DNA of 34,767 nt from an uncultured Desulfuromonadales bacterium (GTDB lineage Bacteria > Desulfobacterota > Desulfuromonadia > Geobacterales > CAIOGM01), in contig CAIYUY010000187.1 in assembly GCA_903929485.1 (NCBI GenBank), positions 1 to 34,767 on the forward strand. Reading direction: 5' to 3'. Within the stretch, counting starts at the first letter, position 1. Every line of letters begins with the position of its first letter. Below are positions 1-32,779 of the stretch, in pieces. The position numbers and the translations under genes are program-made. The notes beneath the pieces are model-generated. The model ran no database searches and was not told the DNA's origin. It worked only from the letters and a program-made list of their open reading frames with translations.

Positions 1-756
1 GACAAAAGGCCCATTTATTGTTACCAGGTCTCCATTAGTCATATTTACTGGATTAATTACTGGATAACCACAACTTTGGTATGATGCCGCCTTGAGAACA
101 GTACCAAATGGCCCTGTTTGCAAAGAAATGTCTCCAGTGGCAATCAGCTCTTTACAAGGTTTAGTGGCATATTTCGAAACCTGAGCAAAGTATTCAACCG
201 CTAAAGACGAACGTAGTTTTTTGACTAAAGAGTCAAGATACCTCAATGATTCTAGAACTGTATCAGTTGTAGACAAAATTTTGATCAATGATATTTGCTC
301 TTCCAACGGCGGTAGCGCAAACTGCTGAACCGCCATTGTCTTCCAATTGATCGTCGGTGACAACGACCCGACTGAAATCTCCACCGCCCGGTTCATGAAT
401 AAATCACTCTGCATGAAGAACGGCAGGAACTCCGGCAATACGACATCGGTTCGTGGCCGCAGCACCATGGCATGGGCTGAACAGATACCATCGAACTCCG
501 CCACACCCAACTTCCGCTGATAAGCCCTGCGCCGCGCAAAGATGATGTCGCCCTTCTTGAAACAGAGCTTGGTGGCTTCCACGTCTTCCGGCTTTCCCCA
601 TCGCCGAATCTTCAACGAATCCGGATCAAGGTGTTCCAACCCGACGTAAAATTCAACTCCGGGCTTTGACGGATCATCAATCCGCTCATTGACGTTGATC
701 GCGATTTGATCAAAACGCCAACTCTTCCAGCCGGGCTTCAGGGCACTATCCTTCAT
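1..756 (-). CDS. hsdS: Type I restriction-modification specificity subunit HsdS (5' part, runs off left edge)
   Basis: HsdS gives a type I R-M complex its DNA target specificity. About 252 residues are visible: a first target-recognition domain, with LEHLDPDSLKIRRWG and FKKGDIIFARRRAYQRKL near residues 40-85, followed by the conserved spacer ending PPLEEQ, then the start of the second half. The frame is open to base 1, so the gene continues outside the window. The ATG overlaps the end of the upstream antitoxin gene by 11 bases, so translation is probably coupled; no strong ribosome binding site stands alone. The usual partner hsdM, expected upstream, is present only as a short remnant at 2443-2535. 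This HsdS may therefore be an orphan or depend on a methylase encoded elsewhere. The family call is secure; activity is unknown. Confidence 0.9.
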   Translation of the reverse strand, partial: MKDSALKPGWKSWRFDQIAINVNERIDDPSKPGVEFYVGLEHLDPDSLKIRRWGKPEDVEATKLCFKKGDIIFARRRAYQRKLGVAEFDGICSAHAMVLRPRTDVVLPEFLPFFMQSDLFMNRAVEISVGSLSPTINWKTMAVQQFALPPLEEQISLIKILSTTDTVLESLRYLDSLVKKLRSSLAVEYFAQVSKYATKPCKELIATGDISLQTGPFGTVLKAASYQSCGYPVINPVNMTNGDLVTINGPFV

Positions 757-1843
757 GCGCCCACACGTAGCGAACCTTGAGCGATTTATTCAGGAACGAA
801 TTCCATGGGAGACGTTTTTCATTTTGTAAACGTCCAATGACGATACCTGGAGCAATACCATGTTCTGTCGCAAAGTTACGAATACTGGATTCGTTAGCAG
901 AGAGAGTGTTTAACATACGCGCAGCTGGGGGAGGTATCAGCAGGTCCCTTGCAAAAGTATTCGCTTGCTCTTCATCGTCGTTGCCGAGGTCTCCTTCGAC
1001 ATCAATGAAAAGAAGCTTTTTCCCATGCAACAACAGGTGCCCAGCTTCGTGAAAAAAGGAAAACCAGAAATGGTCATTGGTCTTATGCCGAAGGCTCAAC
1101 ATAAGTAAAGCTTTCCCCTGACCGACCCATTTAGTCGCCCCGCTTACAGGGCATCCTTTTGGCGCCGGAGTGACCACTACGGCGACACCAACCGCAGCAC
1201 AGACTTCTGTTAATTTCGGGATAAAAATCTCAGGATCAGGCTCAGTTGTAAGTGCCCGTAGCTTTAAAAGGGTCTCTTTGAAATGCGTCTTGTTATATGG
1301 CTCACAAACAATCATAGCTGACTGCCGTTCGCCTCCGCGTAACCATGCCGAAACAGCACCACTATGTTTGGCAAATTTTTCCGAGGATCGGTAGGCTGCC
1401 ACCGGCTTGCCATATTCATTTTGCCAAGCGGAAACAGAAGCAACCCCAAAGAAACGGAGACACTCGGCAACCATCTCACCTTTATCAGCAAAGGAGCGAA
1501 TCCAGCCGAAATTGATCATATCCCGGACCGGTATCTCCTTGAGCCAACCCGCAAAAGCCGCCAAGGAAATACGCTCTTCAGCTCTGGCGAGACCTTCACG
1601 GTAGTGGGCTTCCCGGGTAAGCCAGAAACTGGCGGGACTTCCCAGAACACGTTCAAGCTTTAAGGCTGCATCTTCCGTTAGTGCGACCTTACCATTTATA
1701 AGCTGACTAATGTGCTTGGTGGTATAACCGGTGCGAATTGCGAATTCCGCCTGATTCCATCCGCGTTCTTCAAGCAGATCGAGAATAGTGTCGCCTGGCG
1801 GTGAAACCCAGTCAGGGGTAAATGCTGTTGATACATTAGCCAT
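746..1843 (-). CDS. HigA-like antitoxin fused to ImmA/IrrE-type metallopeptidase
   Basis: A two-domain protein of 365 residues. The N-terminal ~90 residues are an XRE-type helix-turn-helix of the HigA/VapI kind (PPGDTILDLLEERGWNQAEFA, then TTKHISQLINGK), expected to bind its own promoter and neutralise the toxin. The C-terminal part carries the zinc-peptidase motif FFHEAGHLLLH (HEAGH about residues 265-269) and the downstream EEQANTFARDLLIP segment that normally supplies the third metal ligand, as in ImmA/IrrE proteins. The start is taken at the ATG at 1843, which has AGGTGA six bases upstream; an in-frame GTG at 1852 is less likely. It overlaps the toxin gene by 8 bases and hsdS by 11, so toxin, antitoxin and specificity subunit form one translational unit. 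Whether the peptidase cleaves a partner is not shown. Confidence 0.88.
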   Translation of the reverse strand: MANVSTAFTPDWVSPPGDTILDLLEERGWNQAEFAIRTGYTTKHISQLINGKVALTEDAALKLERVLGSPASFWLTREAHYREGLARAEERISLAAFAGWLKEIPVRDMINFGWIRSFADKGEMVAECLRFFGVASVSAWQNEYGKPVAAYRSSEKFAKHSGAVSAWLRGGERQSAMIVCEPYNKTHFKETLLKLRALTTEPDPEIFIPKLTEVCAAVGVAVVVTPAPKGCPVSGATKWVGQGKALLMLSLRHKTNDHFWFSFFHEAGHLLLHGKKLLFIDVEGDLGNDDEEQANTFARDLLIPPPAARMLNTLSANESSIRNFATEHGIAPGIVIGRLQNEKRLPWNSFLNKSLKVRYVWAHEG

Positions 1844-2165
1844 GATAATCACCTATAAAAACGATGCGGACCTTTGTCACGCTTTCCCAACGAATGGACT
1901 CGTCTTCACGTACGGGAATAGGGTGGTTTGCCGGTTCAAAAACAAGGCGCACTCCTCCATGAAGATCGAGAGCGAATTCACCAATTCGATCTCCTTTCAG
2001 CGGGTGAGGATGCCCGGATGATAATTCGGCCATGTTTGCTGCCGCACGGAGATCTGCCAATCGGGTTCGGAGCTTACGACTACAGTTGTCACCTAACTGT
2101 TTCGTCATAGCCTTTTGTTGTTCGCAGAGTTTTTGTAAATCGGGAGAGGAGAATTCAATGTCCAT
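1836..2165 (-). CDS. RelE/ParE-superfamily (HigB-like) toxin
   Basis: A 109-residue basic protein resembling HigB/RelE-fold toxins annotated as 'killer' or plasmid-maintenance proteins. It has an N-terminal helical part (SPDLQKLCEQQKAM), then HPLKGDRIGEFALDLHGGVRLVFEP, the usual central strand region, and a C-terminal VTKVRIVFIGDYHG strand. Members of this family typically cleave mRNA on the ribosome, but catalytic residues cannot be confirmed by eye. It lies first in a toxin-then-antitoxin order, as is usual for higBA, and its stop overlaps the antitoxin start. The reading frame is intact. It has its own promoter with a palindromic operator just upstream. Its position between an hsdM remnant and hsdS is unusual. 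Confidence 0.85.
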   Translation of the reverse strand: MDIEFSSPDLQKLCEQQKAMTKQLGDNCSRKLRTRLADLRAAANMAELSSGHPHPLKGDRIGEFALDLHGGVRLVFEPANHPIPVREDESIRWESVTKVRIVFIGDYHG

Positions 2166-2463: not shown

Positions 2464-2535
2464 CCTTCTTTCCCGGAGGATATTGGCGGATTCCCAAAGG
2501 TGATTTTCAAGCTGCGAGAGGCTGATGCTTGTCAT
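2443..2535 (-). pseudogene. hsdM: Truncated hsdM remnant (first 21 codons of a type I DNA methyltransferase)
   Basis: From the ATG at 2535 the minus strand reads a peptide containing LSQLENHLWESANILR. This is the characteristic N-terminus of type I methyltransferase subunits, where it is followed by a conserved GPVDAADFK-like region. Here homology stops after codon 21 (about 2473). The frame then runs through the purine-rich 26-base repeat (ERRERRGRT) and stops within it at 2443. No later part of hsdM can be seen before the toxin gene. The remnant starts 23 bases after the dprA-like stop and lies upstream of higBA-hsdS on the same strand. The natural reading is that a complete hsdM-toxin-antitoxin-hsdS operon lost most of hsdM through a deletion linked to the repeat element. 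The identification rests on about 21 residues, but these are distinctive. Confidence 0.75.
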
Positions 2536-2558: not shown

Positions 2559-3572
2559 TTAAAGTACAGACGACAGCTCGTCAGAGAACAGGGAGAGATT
2601 ACCCTGAGTCGCCGTCGGCGTTGTTATCGGCATGGTCGCACTGAACAACGCGTCGAACTCGTCGGAAGATTGCGGGTTCGGCCAGGGGAGTGCCCCCTTT
2701 TCGCGCAGGACGTCCAACCCCTTGGACGGCTCTCCCGTGGATCGGACATAAACAGGAACAAGTCTGAGTTTGTCCAACTGCTCAACTGCTCCCGCCCACG
2801 TCCCTCCCTTGTTGACATCAGAACTTACCACCAGCGCCGCATCGGCCAAGGTATAAATAAGCTTATTTCTCTGCATGGCGTTGCCGACAGTGAAGCCGGC
2901 ACAGGGGTCCTGGGGGGAGATCAGCAGCAGGCGCCCCCCCATGATGGCATTGCGGTGATCACGGTTCATGGCGCTCTTTTCCAGGCTCTCCCCGAGAACA
3001 GCAATGACATTCCCACCTGCCTCCAACGCGCCGCGCATGGCCGCTTGGTCAACCCCCTTTGCCCCACCCGAAACCAGCGTCTTTCCCGATCGGGCAGTGA
3101 GCTTGCCGACAGCCATTGTGTACTCCATCAGCGCCTCATCCGGATGGCGCGGCCCCACCACCGCAAGGCCGCCGCTGTCCAGGAGCCTGATATCACCGCA
3201 ACCGTACAGCAGAGGGGGCGCGTCTTCTCTCAGACGCCCCTTCAAACGCCGGGGATATGCGGTATCGGCACGGCTCATGACCCAGATAGCACGAGACTCC
3301 CAACGCTCTACCACCTGGCTCAACAGAAAGCCGCGTCCCACCAGACGCCGCAACCGCCCTTCTTCCATGACCGGTCGGCAAACGCGAAACAGCTCTCCGG
3401 CATCCGATGTCAAAAAATCCGCCGGCTGACGCCCAAGTTCACGCAGGTGACGAGCCAGACGATTGTACTCGCCAAGGTTCAGCAGATCAGGAGACGAAGG
3501 AGCATGCCCGACCATCAGCGGCGCAGTGAGAAGAAGGATCGCCTGGGTGTTGGGTGAAAGGGAGGGCGCCAT
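2559..3572 (-). CDS. DprA-like (Smf/DprA Rossmann-fold) DNA-processing protein
   Basis: A 337-residue protein of the DprA superfamily, whose best-known members bind single-stranded DNA and load RecA during transformation. Visible hallmarks are [20 protein letters not shown] (residues 105-124), matching the DprA YP-L-DAPP-LY-G region, the nucleotide-loop-like [20 protein letters not shown] (168-187), and [20 protein letters not shown], matching the RN-II-LS segment. The C-terminus shows no clear winged-helix domain. The start is the ATG at 3572, because it overlaps the recQ-like stop as TAATG, a strong sign of coupling; a longer frame to 3662 is only overlap. The partnership with a PRTase-bearing helicase recalls ShosTA, a defence/toxin-antitoxin system pairing a PRTase protein with a DprA-family protein, so this may be a defence DprA rather than the competence gene. 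Confidence 0.88.
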
Positions 3573-5650
3573 TAATCCCGCCCTGCCTGGGCCAGCGCCA
3601 CCGGCCAGACCTCGCCGCTGCCGTGACTGCGCAGCAGCCATGCAGCGGCGGTGAAGGTCCAACGTGAATCCACCAGGTCGTCAACCAAGAACAGGGGACC
3701 TCGCCGGGGGAGCCTCTGCGCGCAAAAAGCCAGGGAGCCGTCGATGTTTCGCGCCTGCTGAGTGCTGTTCGCCATGCTTTTCTGTTCAGGACGATGATCC
3801 GTTTTGGTCAGGACGACATGAAAGGGGAGACCAAGGAGGTCGGCCAGTCGCCGAGCGAAATCGGGGACGAGATCGGGGTGACGAAGTGACGGGATGCAGG
3901 TAACCCAGGTGGGGAATGTTTGCGGGTTCCACTCTCCGATCATCTTGGCGCAAGCTCCCACCAGTTCGTCGGAAAAGTGGAGATCAAGGGACCTGCCACG
4001 TCCGACGGCTCCTCCCCAACCGGCATCCCCCAGGATGGAGAGCGCCCTCCCCGGTTGCGCCAGCTGCCCCTGGGGAATGAACCCTTTCACCCCATACCGG
4101 GGCATACCGCCGTCCGGCCATTTCTTGCGCGGCTCAAAGGGAAGCCCGTCGCGGCAAAGATACGCCACAGCCTCCCGGACCAAAGCCTCATCCACTGAGG
4201 TGGGCAAAGGCGCCAGGGGAGGAGGAGTAACGGAGCTTGGGTCGCCATCCAGCGCCCTCACGAGAAAACCCATATGCTCGCCGAAGGGGAGTCTGACATA
4301 TGCCTGCATCTGCTCCTGCTCGGTGCGGCGCAGGGCCGTAAGCCGCTCCGCCCGCTCCCAGAACCCCTCACTCAGCTTCGCGGCGGTGAGTTGCCACTTG
4401 TGCCCCTGCTTGGCCATGGGTGCGGGAGATTCCAGGGAGAGGAGGGCCATCGTCTTTTCGATCCGCCCCTTGCTCACATTCACCCTGGCCATGATCTCGG
4501 GAACCGACAACCCGTCAGGCTCTTTCTCCAGCGCTTCCAGCACGGCAGCCACCTCCCGGCGAGACGGAAAGGCGCTGGTGATGAACCAGTCGGTGATGTT
4601 CGTCTCTTCCTCGCCGCTCAACAGGACTCCGTAGGCAGCATCAAGGGCGCGCCCCGCTCGGCCCGCCTGCTGATAATAAGCCACCACCGAACCGGGGGAT
4701 TGATAATGAATCACGAAGGCCAGATCCGGCTTGTCGTACCCCATCCCCAGAGCCGTGGTAGCCACCAGCGCCTTCACCCGATTATGGAGGAGCGCCTCCT
4801 CCAACTCCTCCCGACCGGGACCGGTTTGACCGGTGTACGCTTCCACGACCAGGCCCCGACTCTTCAGCCAACCGGCGACCTGCTCGGCGTCACGCACCGT
4901 CAGGGTGTAGATGATCCCATGCCCCTGAAGCGTCCCCAGCTGTTCCGCCAGCCAGGCCAGCCTCTCCGCCTGACTGGGGAGAGAGACCGTCTGGAGTGAA
5001 AGGGAACTCCGGTTCAGATCCCCCCGCGACACCTCCAGCCTGGGCCCCAGCACCGTTGCCAGATCCGCCAGCACCCGGTTGTTGGCGGTGGCCGTGGTGG
5101 CCAAAAGCCGCAGGTTGGGAGGGAGTGATCTGATGATCCGCTCCAGGAGACGATAATGAGGACGGAAATCGTGCCCCCAGTCGGAGATGCAGTGGGCCTC
5201 GTCGACCACCAACAGCGAAATTTGCCCGGCGATGCGGGCCAGAACTTGGGTCCGAAACCGCTCATTGGCCAGCCGCTCCGGCGAGATCAGCAGGATGTCG
5301 ATCTCGTTCTTCCCGAACTTCTCTTCCACGTCGCTCCATTCATCCGGATTATCGGAGTTGATGGTGGCGGCCCGCACCCCCATCCGCCGCGCCGCCGTGA
5401 TCTGGTTACGCATGAGGGAAAGGAGAGGAGAGATCAGCAGGGCAGGACCGTTCCCCCCTTCCCGGAGGAGCCTGGCGGCGATGAAGTAGACGAAACTCTT
5501 CCCCCAGCCGGTCTTCTGCACCACCAGTAACCGCCCTCGCCCCTCCACGATGTGGCGAATGGCCTCTTCCTGGCCGTCACGGAACCGGGCGCCGGGAAAC
5601 CCCGAGCCTAGCTTGAGAAGCTCCAGCGATTTTTCCGACGAGTAGGTCAT
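3572..5650 (-). CDS. RecQ-family DNA helicase with C-terminal phosphoribosyltransferase domain
   Basis: A 692-residue fusion. The helicase core is complete: Walker A QKTGWGKS (45-52), [17 protein letters not shown] (148-164, DEAH box with the aromatic-rich loop typical of RecQ), TTATAN (185-190), [18 protein letters not shown] (298-315) and [10 protein letters not shown] (325-334). The four cysteines of the RecQ zinc-binding domain are absent. A winged-helix-like region (about 365-430) and a linker follow, then a C-terminal domain with [17 protein letters not shown] (653-669). This matches the PRPP-binding signature of type I phosphoribosyltransferases, though the usual TTGAT loop reads DSRWT. 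GGAGG lies five bases before the ATG. It is tightly coupled to the DprA-like gene downstream and starts 25 bases after mlaD. DNA unwinding is likely; the role of the PRTase domain is unknown. Confidence 0.9.
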
Positions 5651-5675: not shown

Positions 5676-6758
5676 TCAGAACAACGAGAACTTCACGTAC
5701 CGGCCGGGATTCGTCTTGATGTCGATCACCAGTTCGTCCACCGAGTTCACCATTCTGTCCATCTTGTTGTAGAGCTCCTTATCGCTCACCAGTTTCCCCG
5801 CGGTCCCCTCGCCACGGTTGATCCGGGCGGTCACCTCTTCCAGTGACCTGAGAGAGTTGTCGGCGCGACCCAGGAGGTCGGTACTCTTGTCATAGAGCTT
5901 CCGGTCATTGATGAGCAGACCGATGGTCCCATCCGACGAGGTGATCTTCCGGTTCAACGCCCGAACATCCTCGGCGGCCTGGACGCTCTTGTCGGCCAAA
6001 ACCACCAGCTTGTCGTAGAGTTGGCGATCATGGATAAAGCGGTTCATTGTCCCGTCCGATTCCGTGATCTCCTGTAGAGTCCGGTCGGCCCGCCCAAGAA
6101 TAGTGATCAGCTTGTCGTAGGGTTCACTGCTTCCCACCAGTTTACCGATAGTCCCCTTGCCGCTGTTGATGTTCATGACGACCCTGTTCAACTGCTTGGA
6201 GAGAATCACCAGGTTATCGTAGAGCTTGGGGTCCTTGGTGAACCGGCCGAAACTCCCTTCACCCTGGTTGATCCGGCCGATGATCCCGTTGAGCATCTCA
6301 AAGGAGCTGTCCGCCTTCTTCATCACATCTTCCATCCGGACAGTTTGCAACCCCACGAGGCGCCGAAGCGGCTTGACCGAATAGCCGGCACTGGGGGTGA
6401 TGTCCACATATTTTTCCCCCATAAGTCCCCGCGTCTTGATGGTGACCACCGAATCAGGGCCAATCTTCTTCAGTGAATCATGGTCCAGTTCCAGAACGAT
6501 CTCCACCTCGTTGCTTTTCTCCGGATGCTCGAAACCGAGGTAGGTGACGACCCCCACATCCATCCCCGCCAACCAGACCGGCGCCCCGGCTTTCAAGCCG
6601 GCCACATCCTTCATGATAACCGACAGCGTTTCAGTGGAGGCAAAGAGCTTGGTCTTCTGCCCCATGAGGACAATTCCACCCGCCAGACAGAGAAGCGCCA
6701 CAATGATGAACATTCCCACCCGCACCTGGGCCCACGCTATGTTGTCACTTCGTTTCAT
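5676..6758 (-). CDS. mlaD: MlaD-type MCE-domain lipid transport protein
   Basis: A 360-residue inner-membrane-anchored MCE protein that forms the periplasmic substrate-binding ring of Mla-type phospholipid transporters. A single transmembrane anchor is visible at about residues 14-32 (VGMFIIVALLCLAGGIVLMG). It is followed by one MCE domain with VAGLKAGAPVWLAGMDVGVV and TRGLMGEKYVDITP. The long C-terminal half consists of imperfect repeats around 'GxGTIGKLVxxxxLYDKL' (for example EGSFGRFTKDPKLYDNL and SDGTIGLLINDRKLYDK), likely helical. GAGGA precedes the ATG at 6758. It lies downstream of the ATPase gene mlaF and upstream of recQ on the same strand. The MCE family call is secure; the exact lipid carried is unknown. 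Confidence 0.93.
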   Translation of the reverse strand: MKRSDNIAWAQVRVGMFIIVALLCLAGGIVLMGQKTKLFASTETLSVIMKDVAGLKAGAPVWLAGMDVGVVTYLGFEHPEKSNEVEIVLELDHDSLKKIGPDSVVTIKTRGLMGEKYVDITPSAGYSVKPLRRLVGLQTVRMEDVMKKADSSFEMLNGIIGRINQGEGSFGRFTKDPKLYDNLVILSKQLNRVVMNINSGKGTIGKLVGSSEPYDKLITILGRADRTLQEITESDGTMNRFIHDRQLYDKLVVLADKSVQAAEDVRALNRKITSSDGTIGLLINDRKLYDKSTDLLGRADNSLRSLEEVTARINRGEGTAGKLVSDKELYNKMDRMVNSVDELVIDIKTNPGRYVKFSLF

Positions 6759-29794: not shown

Positions 29795-32779
29795 TCAAGA
29801 ATCATTTAACCGTGAATATACTTTTTTCAACATCCATTCCCGCACCATCCCACCAAAAGCCTTGTCTTCGACAATTTTTTCGAATATTTCCTGATTCTGG
29901 TCCATTCTTTCTATCAGCTTGCCCAGGAACTGATCCTCGAAGGCATACTTGAAAGTATCAATTTTATTGGCTTGGGCCTGTGTTTTCAGGGTTTCATCCT
30001 GGACCAGTTCAGCTTCAATCTGGTCGAAGAAAAGTCTGTCGGCCTGCTGAAAATCGGTGCCGAATCGTTCATTCAGTAGATCGATGATTTCAGACAATGC
30101 CGCGGTATCTTCCTTTGCTCGTGTTATTCCCGCCTCCGACAGCCCGTCAATCTCGCCGGGTTCATCCTTTTGCAACTCAATGCTTCCTTCAGCGATCTTT
30201 TGCAGGCGGTAATACTCCAGGGTAACCTCATCGTCCAGTCTCAGGCTTTCCGACAAATCTCTTTTGGGTAGCTTTGTTTGCAATAGCCGGGCAAAGGCGT
30301 AAAACTTTTCGAAGTCAGGCTCGGTAAAGGGCATTATCTGGGCAAGGAAAGAGTAGAGATTGGTCCAGGTCCGGAGACCTTTCTTGAAATCATCTTTTTC
30401 ATCTTCTTTCACCATCGCCTTGAACCGGTCCACCGCCGGATCGAGACAGGCGTATAAGAGCGATTGGTCTTTAGTCGTTAACCTGCGGCTATCCTTGAAA
30501 TAGAGTCGCGCAAACGCCTCGATCTCCGATTGCCAGTAAATCCGTTTTTCGTCAAGTTTCCCCTTCAGATCATAAAGGTGGTTAGGATCGGGTTCGTTGG
30601 TAACGGTCGTTATTTCGTAATATGGCTGAAACGAGGAGAGGATGGTATCCCGGTCGTTGACGAAGTCCAGGATAAACGTATCCTCCTTGCCGGGACAAGT
30701 TCGATTAAGTCTGGAAAACGTCTGAACCGCTTTTACACCCGACAGCTTTTTATCCACATACATGGTCTGCAACAATGGTTGATCGAAGCCGGTCTGATAC
30801 TTGTCCGCAACGATGAGAATCTTGTATTCATCCTTGGCGAATATTTCCGGCAGCTCCCGCTCGCCATACCCGGTGAGGGAAGGCTCGGAAACGCCATCGG
30901 GAAAGTCGTCGTCAATCACCTTTCCAGAAAAGGCCACCAACACCCTGATGTCGGCATATTCCTTGGCTTTTATATAACGATTGAATTCGTCGTAGTACCT
31001 TTTTGCATGAAGTCGTGAACCGGTCACCACCATGGCTTTGGCCCTGCCGCCGATCTTGCGAGCAACAACTTGTCGAAAATGCTCCAGGATGATCTCGGTC
31101 TTCTGGCTAAGGTTATGGGGATGCAGCGACACATATTTCCCTATGGCCTGGGCAGCCTTCTTCCTGTTGAGGAGCGGGTTCTCCTCAATTGCCTTGGTCA
31201 GCTTGAAGTAAAGCTCGTAGGTCGTATAGTTTTCCAGAACATCCAGAATGAACCCTTCCTCAATTGCCTGCCGCATGGAATAGAGGTGAAACGGTTGCGG
31301 CTTACCCTCCGAATTCAAATGACCAAACACGGCCAGAGTCTTATATTTCGGCGTGGCGGTAAAGGCAAAAAACGAGATATTCCGCTGTCTCCCTCTGGCT
31401 GCGGCTGACTTCTCCACTTCGGCGTTGATTTCGTCTTCGGCGTCATCACCGCCGGGATCATTCACACAAGCCTCATCAAGGGAGCCGGCGGAGAGGACCT
31501 CCTTCATCTTCTTGCTGGCCTCGCCCCCCTGCGAACTGTGGGCCTCGTCGATAATGACGGCATATCTCCTGTCCGGCAGATCGCCGACCTTCTCCATGAC
31601 AAAGGGAAACTTCTGCAAGGTGGTAATGATGATGTGCGCTCCGTAGCTGATTGCGGCGGCAAGCTGGGAGCTATCCTTGTCGACCTTTTGCACCACCCCG
31701 GTTTTATGCTCGAACTGATAGATGGTGTCCTGCAACTGGTTATCAAGCACCTTGCGGTCGGTCACCACGATGACACTATGGAAAATCCGTTCATCCTGTC
31801 CATTGTGCAGCGTGGAGAGTCCGTAGGCCAGCCAGGCGATGGAATTGCTTTTTCCCGAACCGGCTGAATGCTGAACCAGATAGTTATTACCGACGCCCCT
31901 GATCCTGGCGTCACTCATCATTTTTCGAACGGAATCAAGCTGATGGTAGCGGGGGAAGATCATTTTTTCGCTTTTCTTCGTCACTCCGCCCAACTCATAC
32001 TCCTCGGTTTGCAGGTGGATGAAGCGCTGAATGATATCAAGCCAGCTATTTTTGACCAGGGTTTCTTCCCAAAGATAGGAACTTTTGTAACCATCGGGGT
32101 TTAACGGGTTCCCTTTGCCGTTGCCACATCCTTTATTGAAAGGAAGCCAGTGGGTTCTGTTCCCGTCCAGTCTGGTGGCCATATATACTTCGTCGGGATC
32201 GACGGCGAAATGAACGAGGGCTCTCTTCTTGAAGGCAAAAAGCAATTCGCGGTTATCCCGATCCTGGGCGTACTGCCGCTTGGCGTTGGCCGCCGTCTGG
32301 CCGGTAAAATGGTTCTTCAGCTCCAGTGTCGCCACGGGGAGGCCGTTGAGGGAGAGGACCAGATCAATGGAGTTTCTGTTCTTATCGCTATAGAAAAGTT
32401 GACGAGTTACCTTCAGCCGGTTCCGTTCATACAGCGTCAAAGTGTCCTGGTTCATGGCGGATTCCGGCTTGAAAAAAGCCATCCGGAAGCGGATGCCGTA
32501 ATCCACGAAACCGTTACGGATGACATCCAGGGAACCTCGTAAATCCAGCTCTTTATACAGCCGCTGGATTATCCGGTAATGGCAATCGGCGCCATGAACG
32601 GCTTCCAGTTTTGACCACTTTTCCGGCTGAGTCGACCGGATGAAATCGACCACCTCGGCCTTGAACATCCCCAGTTCAACGCTGTACTCATCGACGTTCC
32701 CCTGGATATAACCACCCTGTTCGACGAGCCTTTCGACAATGGCGGACTCAAAGGTCTTTTCCGTACGGATATCGGTCAT
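29795..32779 (-). CDS. hsdR: Type I restriction enzyme R subunit HsdR
   Basis: A full-length 994-residue motor-nuclease that translocates DNA and cuts unmethylated targets in complex with HsdM and HsdS. The nuclease site is visible as SIDLVLSLNGLPVATLELKN (Asp139, Glu153, Lys155). The helicase part has Walker A QHSAGSGKSNS (303-313), VVTDRKVLDNQ, IIDEAHSSQGG (DEAH 411-414), FFAFTATPK and, further on, VADKYQTGFDQPLL and FSRLNRTCPGK. The C-terminus is helical. GAAGGAA precedes the ATG at 32779. It is last on the strand after hsdS and the SIR2 gene, with 331 bases of non-coding DNA before it, so it may have its own promoter. All key residues are present, suggesting an active enzyme. Confidence 0.97.
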   Translation of the reverse strand: MTDIRTEKTFESAIVERLVEQGGYIQGNVDEYSVELGMFKAEVVDFIRSTQPEKWSKLEAVHGADCHYRIIQRLYKELDLRGSLDVIRNGFVDYGIRFRMAFFKPESAMNQDTLTLYERNRLKVTRQLFYSDKNRNSIDLVLSLNGLPVATLELKNHFTGQTAANAKRQYAQDRDNRELLFAFKKRALVHFAVDPDEVYMATRLDGNRTHWLPFNKGCGNGKGNPLNPDGYKSSYLWEETLVKNSWLDIIQRFIHLQTEEYELGGVTKKSEKMIFPRYHQLDSVRKMMSDARIRGVGNNYLVQHSAGSGKSNSIAWLAYGLSTLHNGQDERIFHSVIVVTDRKVLDNQLQDTIYQFEHKTGVVQKVDKDSSQLAAAISYGAHIIITTLQKFPFVMEKVGDLPDRRYAVIIDEAHSSQGGEASKKMKEVLSAGSLDEACVNDPGGDDAEDEINAEVEKSAAARGRQRNISFFAFTATPKYKTLAVFGHLNSEGKPQPFHLYSMRQAIEEGFILDVLENYTTYELYFKLTKAIEENPLLNRKKAAQAIGKYVSLHPHNLSQKTEIILEHFRQVVARKIGGRAKAMVVTGSRLHAKRYYDEFNRYIKAKEYADIRVLVAFSGKVIDDDFPDGVSEPSLTGYGERELPEIFAKDEYKILIVADKYQTGFDQPLLQTMYVDKKLSGVKAVQTFSRLNRTCPGKEDTFILDFVNDRDTILSSFQPYYEITTVTNEPDPNHLYDLKGKLDEKRIYWQSEIEAFARLYFKDSRRLTTKDQSLLYACLDPAVDRFKAMVKEDEKDDFKKGLRTWTNLYSFLAQIMPFTEPDFEKFYAFARLLQTKLPKRDLSESLRLDDEVTLEYYRLQKIAEGSIELQKDEPGEIDGLSEAGITRAKEDTAALSEIIDLLNERFGTDFQQADRLFFDQIEAELVQDETLKTQAQANKIDTFKYAFEDQFLGKLIERMDQNQEIFEKIVEDKAFGGMVREWMLKKVYSRLNDS

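Follow-up and report, generated by a model that had tools for sequence, protein, structure and literature searches.

A RecQ-type helicase–PRTase gene and a DprA-like gene identified as PsyrTA (RqlHI), and their placement beside type I restriction genes

Operons of a helicase–PRTase toxin and a DprA-like antitoxin are known under two names, PsyrTA and RqlHI. The PsyrTA of Pseudomonas syringae was reportedly the subject of work by Sberro et al. in 2013, and Millman et al. are said to have placed PsyrTA among anti-phage systems in 2022. Two later papers cite the Sberro et al. study on PsyrTA (PMC8790059; PMC9122126), surveys call the pair an abortive-infection defence, and it has been entered in defence catalogues (PMC10121019). 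In E. coli, a 2015 study showed that cells with RqlH alone underwent SOS induction, formed filaments and lost viability, and that this toxicity was dependent on the PRTase, because it was abolished by the DIVD663EVME and D663A substitutions, while with the helicase mutants K49A and D148A viable counts were low and the SOS response was induced more strongly (PMC4670107). The E. coli RqlI bound RqlH and countered its toxicity, for which residues 1-320, without the HTH, were enough (PMC4670107). Unbalanced RqlH and RqlI resulted in SOS induction and sensitivity to DNA damage, and fitness was unimpaired in the rqlHI double mutant (PMC4670107). The same study described RqlH without RqlI in many Gram-positive bacteria, which means that the pair is not strictly obligatory (PMC4670107). 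When the PsyrTA of one E. coli strain was expressed in K-12, no protection was detectable, and a growth defect was observed (PMC12409345).

The window, which is the whole stretch of DNA analysed here, is a contig of 34,767 bases (C187) from a draft genome of 5.36 Mb. The features of the locus are as follows:

7626 to 6877, minus strand: mlaF
5676 to 6758, minus strand: mlaD, the host gene next to which the pair is inserted, 25 bases upstream of rqlH
3572 to 5650, minus strand: rqlH (psyrT), toxin component, 692 aa, ATG start, recognised by PADLOC, motifs, homologues and AlphaFold
3570 to 3574, minus strand: overlap of the rqlH stop (TAA) and the rqlI start (ATG), read in the sequence as TAATG with one base in common
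2559 to 3572, minus strand: rqlI (psyrA), antitoxin component, 337 aa, DprA-like (SMF/SLOG), recognised by PADLOC, PF02481, AlphaFold and Foldseek
2473 to 2535, minus strand: 21-codon remnant of the hsdM 5′ end, immediately after rqlI (MTSISLSQLENHLWESANILR)
2317 to 2460, no strand assigned: direct and inverted repeats beside the hsdM break, found in the sequence (AAGGGGACGCACATAAG)
1836 to 2165, minus strand: small ORF adjoining the HigA-like gene, with a sub-threshold HigB match only
746 to 1852, minus strand: HigA-like HTH protein with an M78 (IrrE-like) peptidase domain (PADLOC PD-Lambda-2_B, E 2e-29)
1 to 756, minus strand: hsdS, running off the contig end (PF01420 match at 259-564)

The comparison with PADLOC models showed that RqlH matched PsyrT (PDLC03928) with 865 bits over residues 1-689, and that RqlI matched PsyrA (PDLC03927) with 394 bits over residues 5-330, the second best model for RqlI being ShosA with 85 bits. 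There is hardly any doubt that the pair is another copy of PsyrTA (alias RqlHI), an already described toxin-antitoxin and anti-phage pair. The sequence-only reading had proposed a defence pair akin to ShosTA with its PRTase carried on a helicase, which was right in substance, but the arrangement is not a new one, as it is that of PsyrTA/RqlHI. RqlH remained below the NCBI equivalog cut-offs for canonical recQ (258 versus 640 bits), of which it also lacks the zinc cysteines, and for DpdF (NF041063; 150 versus 550 bits), and RqlI below that for canonical DprA (TIGR00732; 85 versus 191 bits); the genome also encodes separate RecQ-like and DprA-like genes. The overlap of the helicase stop with the DprA-like start, described in the sequence-only reading, was found again, with both open reading frames in place on the minus strand. 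Among 85 related loci, most have an rqlI start that overlaps the rqlH stop or lies near it, and RqlI adjoins RqlH in 77 of the 85 sampled; of the eight loci without an adjacent RqlI, three are cut off by the end of their contig, and in one (L106) RqlI is present with an overlong ORF.

RqlH is composed of a RecQ-like helicase (about residues 1-360), a helical linker without zinc cysteines, and a C-terminal PRTase (about residues 510-692), and its AlphaFold model has a pLDDT of 89. The helicase motifs are intact, with Walker A at residue 47, DExH at 149, and motif VI at 327. The PRTase domain of the window RqlH, found at about residues 580-690, scored weakly against Pfam when taken alone (E 0.0076), and the earlier assignment of this domain is upheld because 16 of 19 RqlH family members matched Pribosyltran (best E 5e-8) and because the family profile retrieved PRPP synthetases, HGPRT and PurF from the PDB. 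A fold search with the whole RqlH model returned RecQ-type helicases only among its 50 best matches, so the assessment of the PRTase fold relied on the profile rather than on a structure match. The PRPP loop at residues 656-665, which contains DDLVDSRWT, had been considered unusual. The alignment of 80 RqlH proteins showed the form DD-x-x-D-S-x-W-T with few exceptions; the window protein thus has an ordinary loop for this family, and the idea of an aberrant loop was rejected in favor of a family signature. Its DLVD corresponds to the DIVD that was mutated in E. coli RqlH. The four RecQ zinc cysteines are indeed absent from the window RqlH, as had been noticed, but this is the hallmark of a group of 29 rows, consisting of the window protein and relatives at 63-94% identity. 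The remaining RqlH proteins, which are 47-53% identical to that of the window, carry C-x(n)-C-x2-C-x2-C, with three of the four cysteines in one member. In the tree, the zinc-free proteins lie on one side of a fully supported branch, and the clade includes Pseudomonas syringae, Mycobacterium, Chlorobiaceae, Cyanobacteria and Verrucomicrobia.

RqlI matched PF02481 with an E of 1.9e-34, and the best Foldseek matches of its model were DprA 3uqz and ShosA 8zva. The AlphaFold model (pLDDT 90) has high confidence up to about residue 311, beyond which it is disordered, and the winged helix is absent from it, in agreement with the sequence-only reading. Most RqlI proteins have 100-180 extra residues after the DprA core, in which an HTH was recognised in several, and 22 of 78 sampled RqlI proteins, including those of the window and two congeners, end within 45 residues of the core, a few of the 22 perhaps because their contigs end. 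A recent frameshift truncating RqlI was rejected, because the two congeners are equally short, and no convincing winged-helix remnant was found downstream of rqlI, where the best relevant match (E 0.009) covered 21 residues and contained an internal stop. As a separate observation, residue 141 of RqlI (3150-3152), in the VVGSR motif of the DprA fold, is a proline; serine occupies this position in 73 of 78 homologues, and the congeners of the window retain it. The identity of rqlHI, its domain make-up, conserved catalytic residues and gene coupling are established by these data.

The hsdM debris mentioned in the sequence-only reading consists of the 21 N-terminal residues of a congener's HsdM: MTSISLSQLENHLWESANILR is identical to the start of the HsdM of congener G003 (locus L025), after which the reading frame breaks off. 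In G003, rqlHI is followed by hsdM-hsdM-hsdS-hsdR, of which the window keeps these first 21 codons of the hsdM behind rqlHI, and also hsdS, whose N-terminal half is near identical to the L025 HsdS and which is part of the same type I locus as in G003. The repeat cluster at 2317-2460 is possibly the footprint of a mobile element or of REP type. The HigA-like/M78 gene and the small ORF (746-2165), placed between the hsdM remnant and hsdS, account for the toxin-antitoxin module that had been seen nearby. Far from rqlHI, an ORF on the minus strand (29795-32779) has weak similarity to HsdR (56 bits).

When the genomes of 58 relatives were compared, rqlH was present in six, the window's own counted. 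The congeners G002 and G003 have rqlHI at the same site as the window, 91-94% identical, and the same-order genomes G010 and G028 have an RqlH of the other clade, 52% identical to that of the window. Closer to the window RqlH than these are the proteins of the gammaproteobacterium Solimonas (76%) and of Chlorobiaceae and Mesorhizobium (74%), and the RqlH tree crosses phyla. In the outgroup G007, two M16 peptidase genes come after mlaD (mlaD-M16-M16), in G002 the order is mlaD-rqlHI-M16, and in the congener G001, which is without rqlHI, it is mlaD-DUF4403-M16, the middle gene being one that we take to be DUF4403-type:

8608 to 9996 of L111 (contig C128 of G001): DUF4403-type gene, placed between mlaD and the M16 genes and in overlap with the stop codon of mlaD

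The position after mlaD is perhaps a hotspot for insertions. The G+C content is 62% in rqlHI versus 56% in the neighboring mlaDF. Because rqlHI is sparse, is nearer to the genes of other phyla than to those of order relatives, differs in G+C, and is placed as the comparison of the mlaD sites shows, it is, judging by these comparisons, a horizontally acquired module inserted behind mlaD in this genus, and not a housekeeping one. A housekeeping setting was rejected, with mlaD serving as the insertion site only. Plasmid carriage was seen in 11 records covering at least 80% of RqlH. None of the phage records covered 80% of the protein, and the matches, at less than 40% identity, were limited to about the first 360 residues, so that carriage of rqlH by phages was rejected, only the helicase part being matched.

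The flanks of related rqlHI loci contain type I methylases, BrxL, LmuB, SoFic and PDC candidates (RM, BREX, Lamassu). The sequence-only reading had named homologues mainly in housekeeping settings as evidence against a defence role, and the gene was found to be sparse, mobile, and often placed by RM, BREX and Lamassu genes; its horizontal spread and defence-gene company are established here. Of 85 loci, 13 have type I restriction genes within the examined flanks, and in nine of the 85 these genes are immediate neighbors of the pair and run in its direction. For a stretch of this size the chance expectation is roughly 1-3% by our own estimate from PF01420 density (120 matches in about 81 Mb from 20 relatives, usually two per HsdS). 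The order hsdM-hsdS-rqlH-rqlI-hsdR was found beside an integrase in all four inspected E. coli records, which were three chromosomes and one conjugative plasmid, and the same layout occurs in V. furnissii and Providencia; the hsd-linked allele is present in 53 of 5426 complete E. coli genomes. No published report of a linkage between PsyrTA and type I restriction was found in the literature searched, the coverage of which is incomplete.

The best explanation overall is that rqlHI is a PsyrTA toxin-antitoxin, most likely serving in abortive-infection defence, and we consider this likely. In the mechanism envisaged, RqlH would be a RecQ-type translocase carrying the PRTase as its toxic part, and RqlI, with its DprA fold, would bind RqlH and restrain the PRTase, a restraint that was demonstrated in E. 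coli. Infection or DNA stress could be the trigger, when the helicase engages DNA or when ssDNA draws RqlI away. The freed PRTase would then use PRPP to damage its presumed substrates, nucleotides or DNA, and the cell would suffer DNA stress and stop growing before the phage spreads. This abortive-defence mechanism appears reasonably probable from the analysis, and the window copy is presumably active. A role of rqlHI in the sensing or processing of DNA that is foreign or damaged is also plausible.

The linkage to restriction genes could be explained differently if RqlHI were a guard of the linked type I system, silenced by it and released by a phage anti-restriction protein, like PrrC with EcoprrI, in which the coupling of a toxic protein to a type I system has its precedent (PMC2610378). 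The hsdM-hsdS-rqlH-rqlI-hsdR order shared by E. coli, V. furnissii and Providencia, the counts of adjacent (9/85) and of any (13/85) type I genes against the chance expectation, and the type I genes beside rqlHI in G003 together with the hsdM and hsdS remains in the window are consistent with such control. On the other hand, 72 of the 85 sampled loci had no type I genes in the flanking DNA examined, so the linkage is not a requirement, in MG1655 RqlI keeps RqlH in check without a linked type I operon, and co-location in defence islands alone may explain the linkage, which makes a guard role unlikely. It is similarly doubtful that PsyrTA has been repeatedly recruited into type I operons as the PRTase counterpart of PrrC, with the window, where the type I system has decayed, and G003 as such cases; the co-location with type I restriction could be ordinary clustering of defence genes in islands.

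A role of RqlH and RqlI in chromosomal repair or recombination, with toxicity as a by-product of imbalance, was first proposed by Russell and Mulvey, and would agree with the RecQ-type helicase and with the SOS induction and DNA-damage sensitivity upon imbalance (PMC4670107), as well as with the position of the pair 25 bases behind mlaD, the same place being kept in three congeners. Such DNA maintenance is quite improbable for a pair which is missing from most relatives and transferred between phyla, which differs in composition and has defence genes as neighbors, and which shares its genome with separate RecQ-like and DprA-like genes. The RqlH PRTase may share features with ComF-type PRTases, and the DprA fold is common to RqlI and ShosA 8zva. 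That rqlHI is a plain ShosTA or a competence (ComF/DprA) relic is nonetheless scarcely credible, given the score of 85 bits for ShosA versus 394 bits for PsyrA, and a PRTase that is fused to a helicase and has no TTGAT-type loop.

Read as PsyrTA, the window pair is one more well-marked case of this system. At the level of the family, the main points are the zinc-free clade extending over many phyla, and the repeated shortening of RqlI to the DprA core. The recurrent placement of rqlHI in or beside type I operons provides a concrete hypothesis for the trigger of the toxin, and its occurrence in several lineages suggests that the linkage is worth following.

Among the known systems, several PADLOC DpdF models (7-deazaguanine DNA modification) match RqlH, one of them its C-terminal part, but RqlH is far under the NCBI DpdF cut-off. 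ShosTA has in common with the pair a PRTase, a DprA-like protein, and the fold match of RqlI to ShosA, but its PRTase is described as a separate protein, while that of the window is fused to a helicase, and the ShosA score is low. PrrC and RloC (PMC2610378) are similar in that there is genetic linkage between a toxic protein and a type I restriction operon, but PrrC is an anticodon nuclease, and control of RqlHI by a restriction enzyme is hypothetical. The E. coli RqlH–RqlI pair (PMC4670107) shares with the window pair the helicase–PRTase toxin, the DprA-like antitoxin, the operon order, and the DxVD residues, whose mutation abolishes toxicity in E. coli. The studied E. coli RqlI has 400 aa with an HTH domain, which the window RqlI lacks, and a plasmid-borne E. 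coli RqlH (L114) is 47% identical to the window protein and has the zinc cysteines. The PsyrTA of Pseudomonas syringae (L104) has an RqlI about 120 residues longer than that of the window, which is without the C-terminal winged helix, but both of its proteins match those of the window, the gene order is equal, the profile match is full-length, and its RqlH is 71% identical to that of the window and likewise without zinc cysteines.
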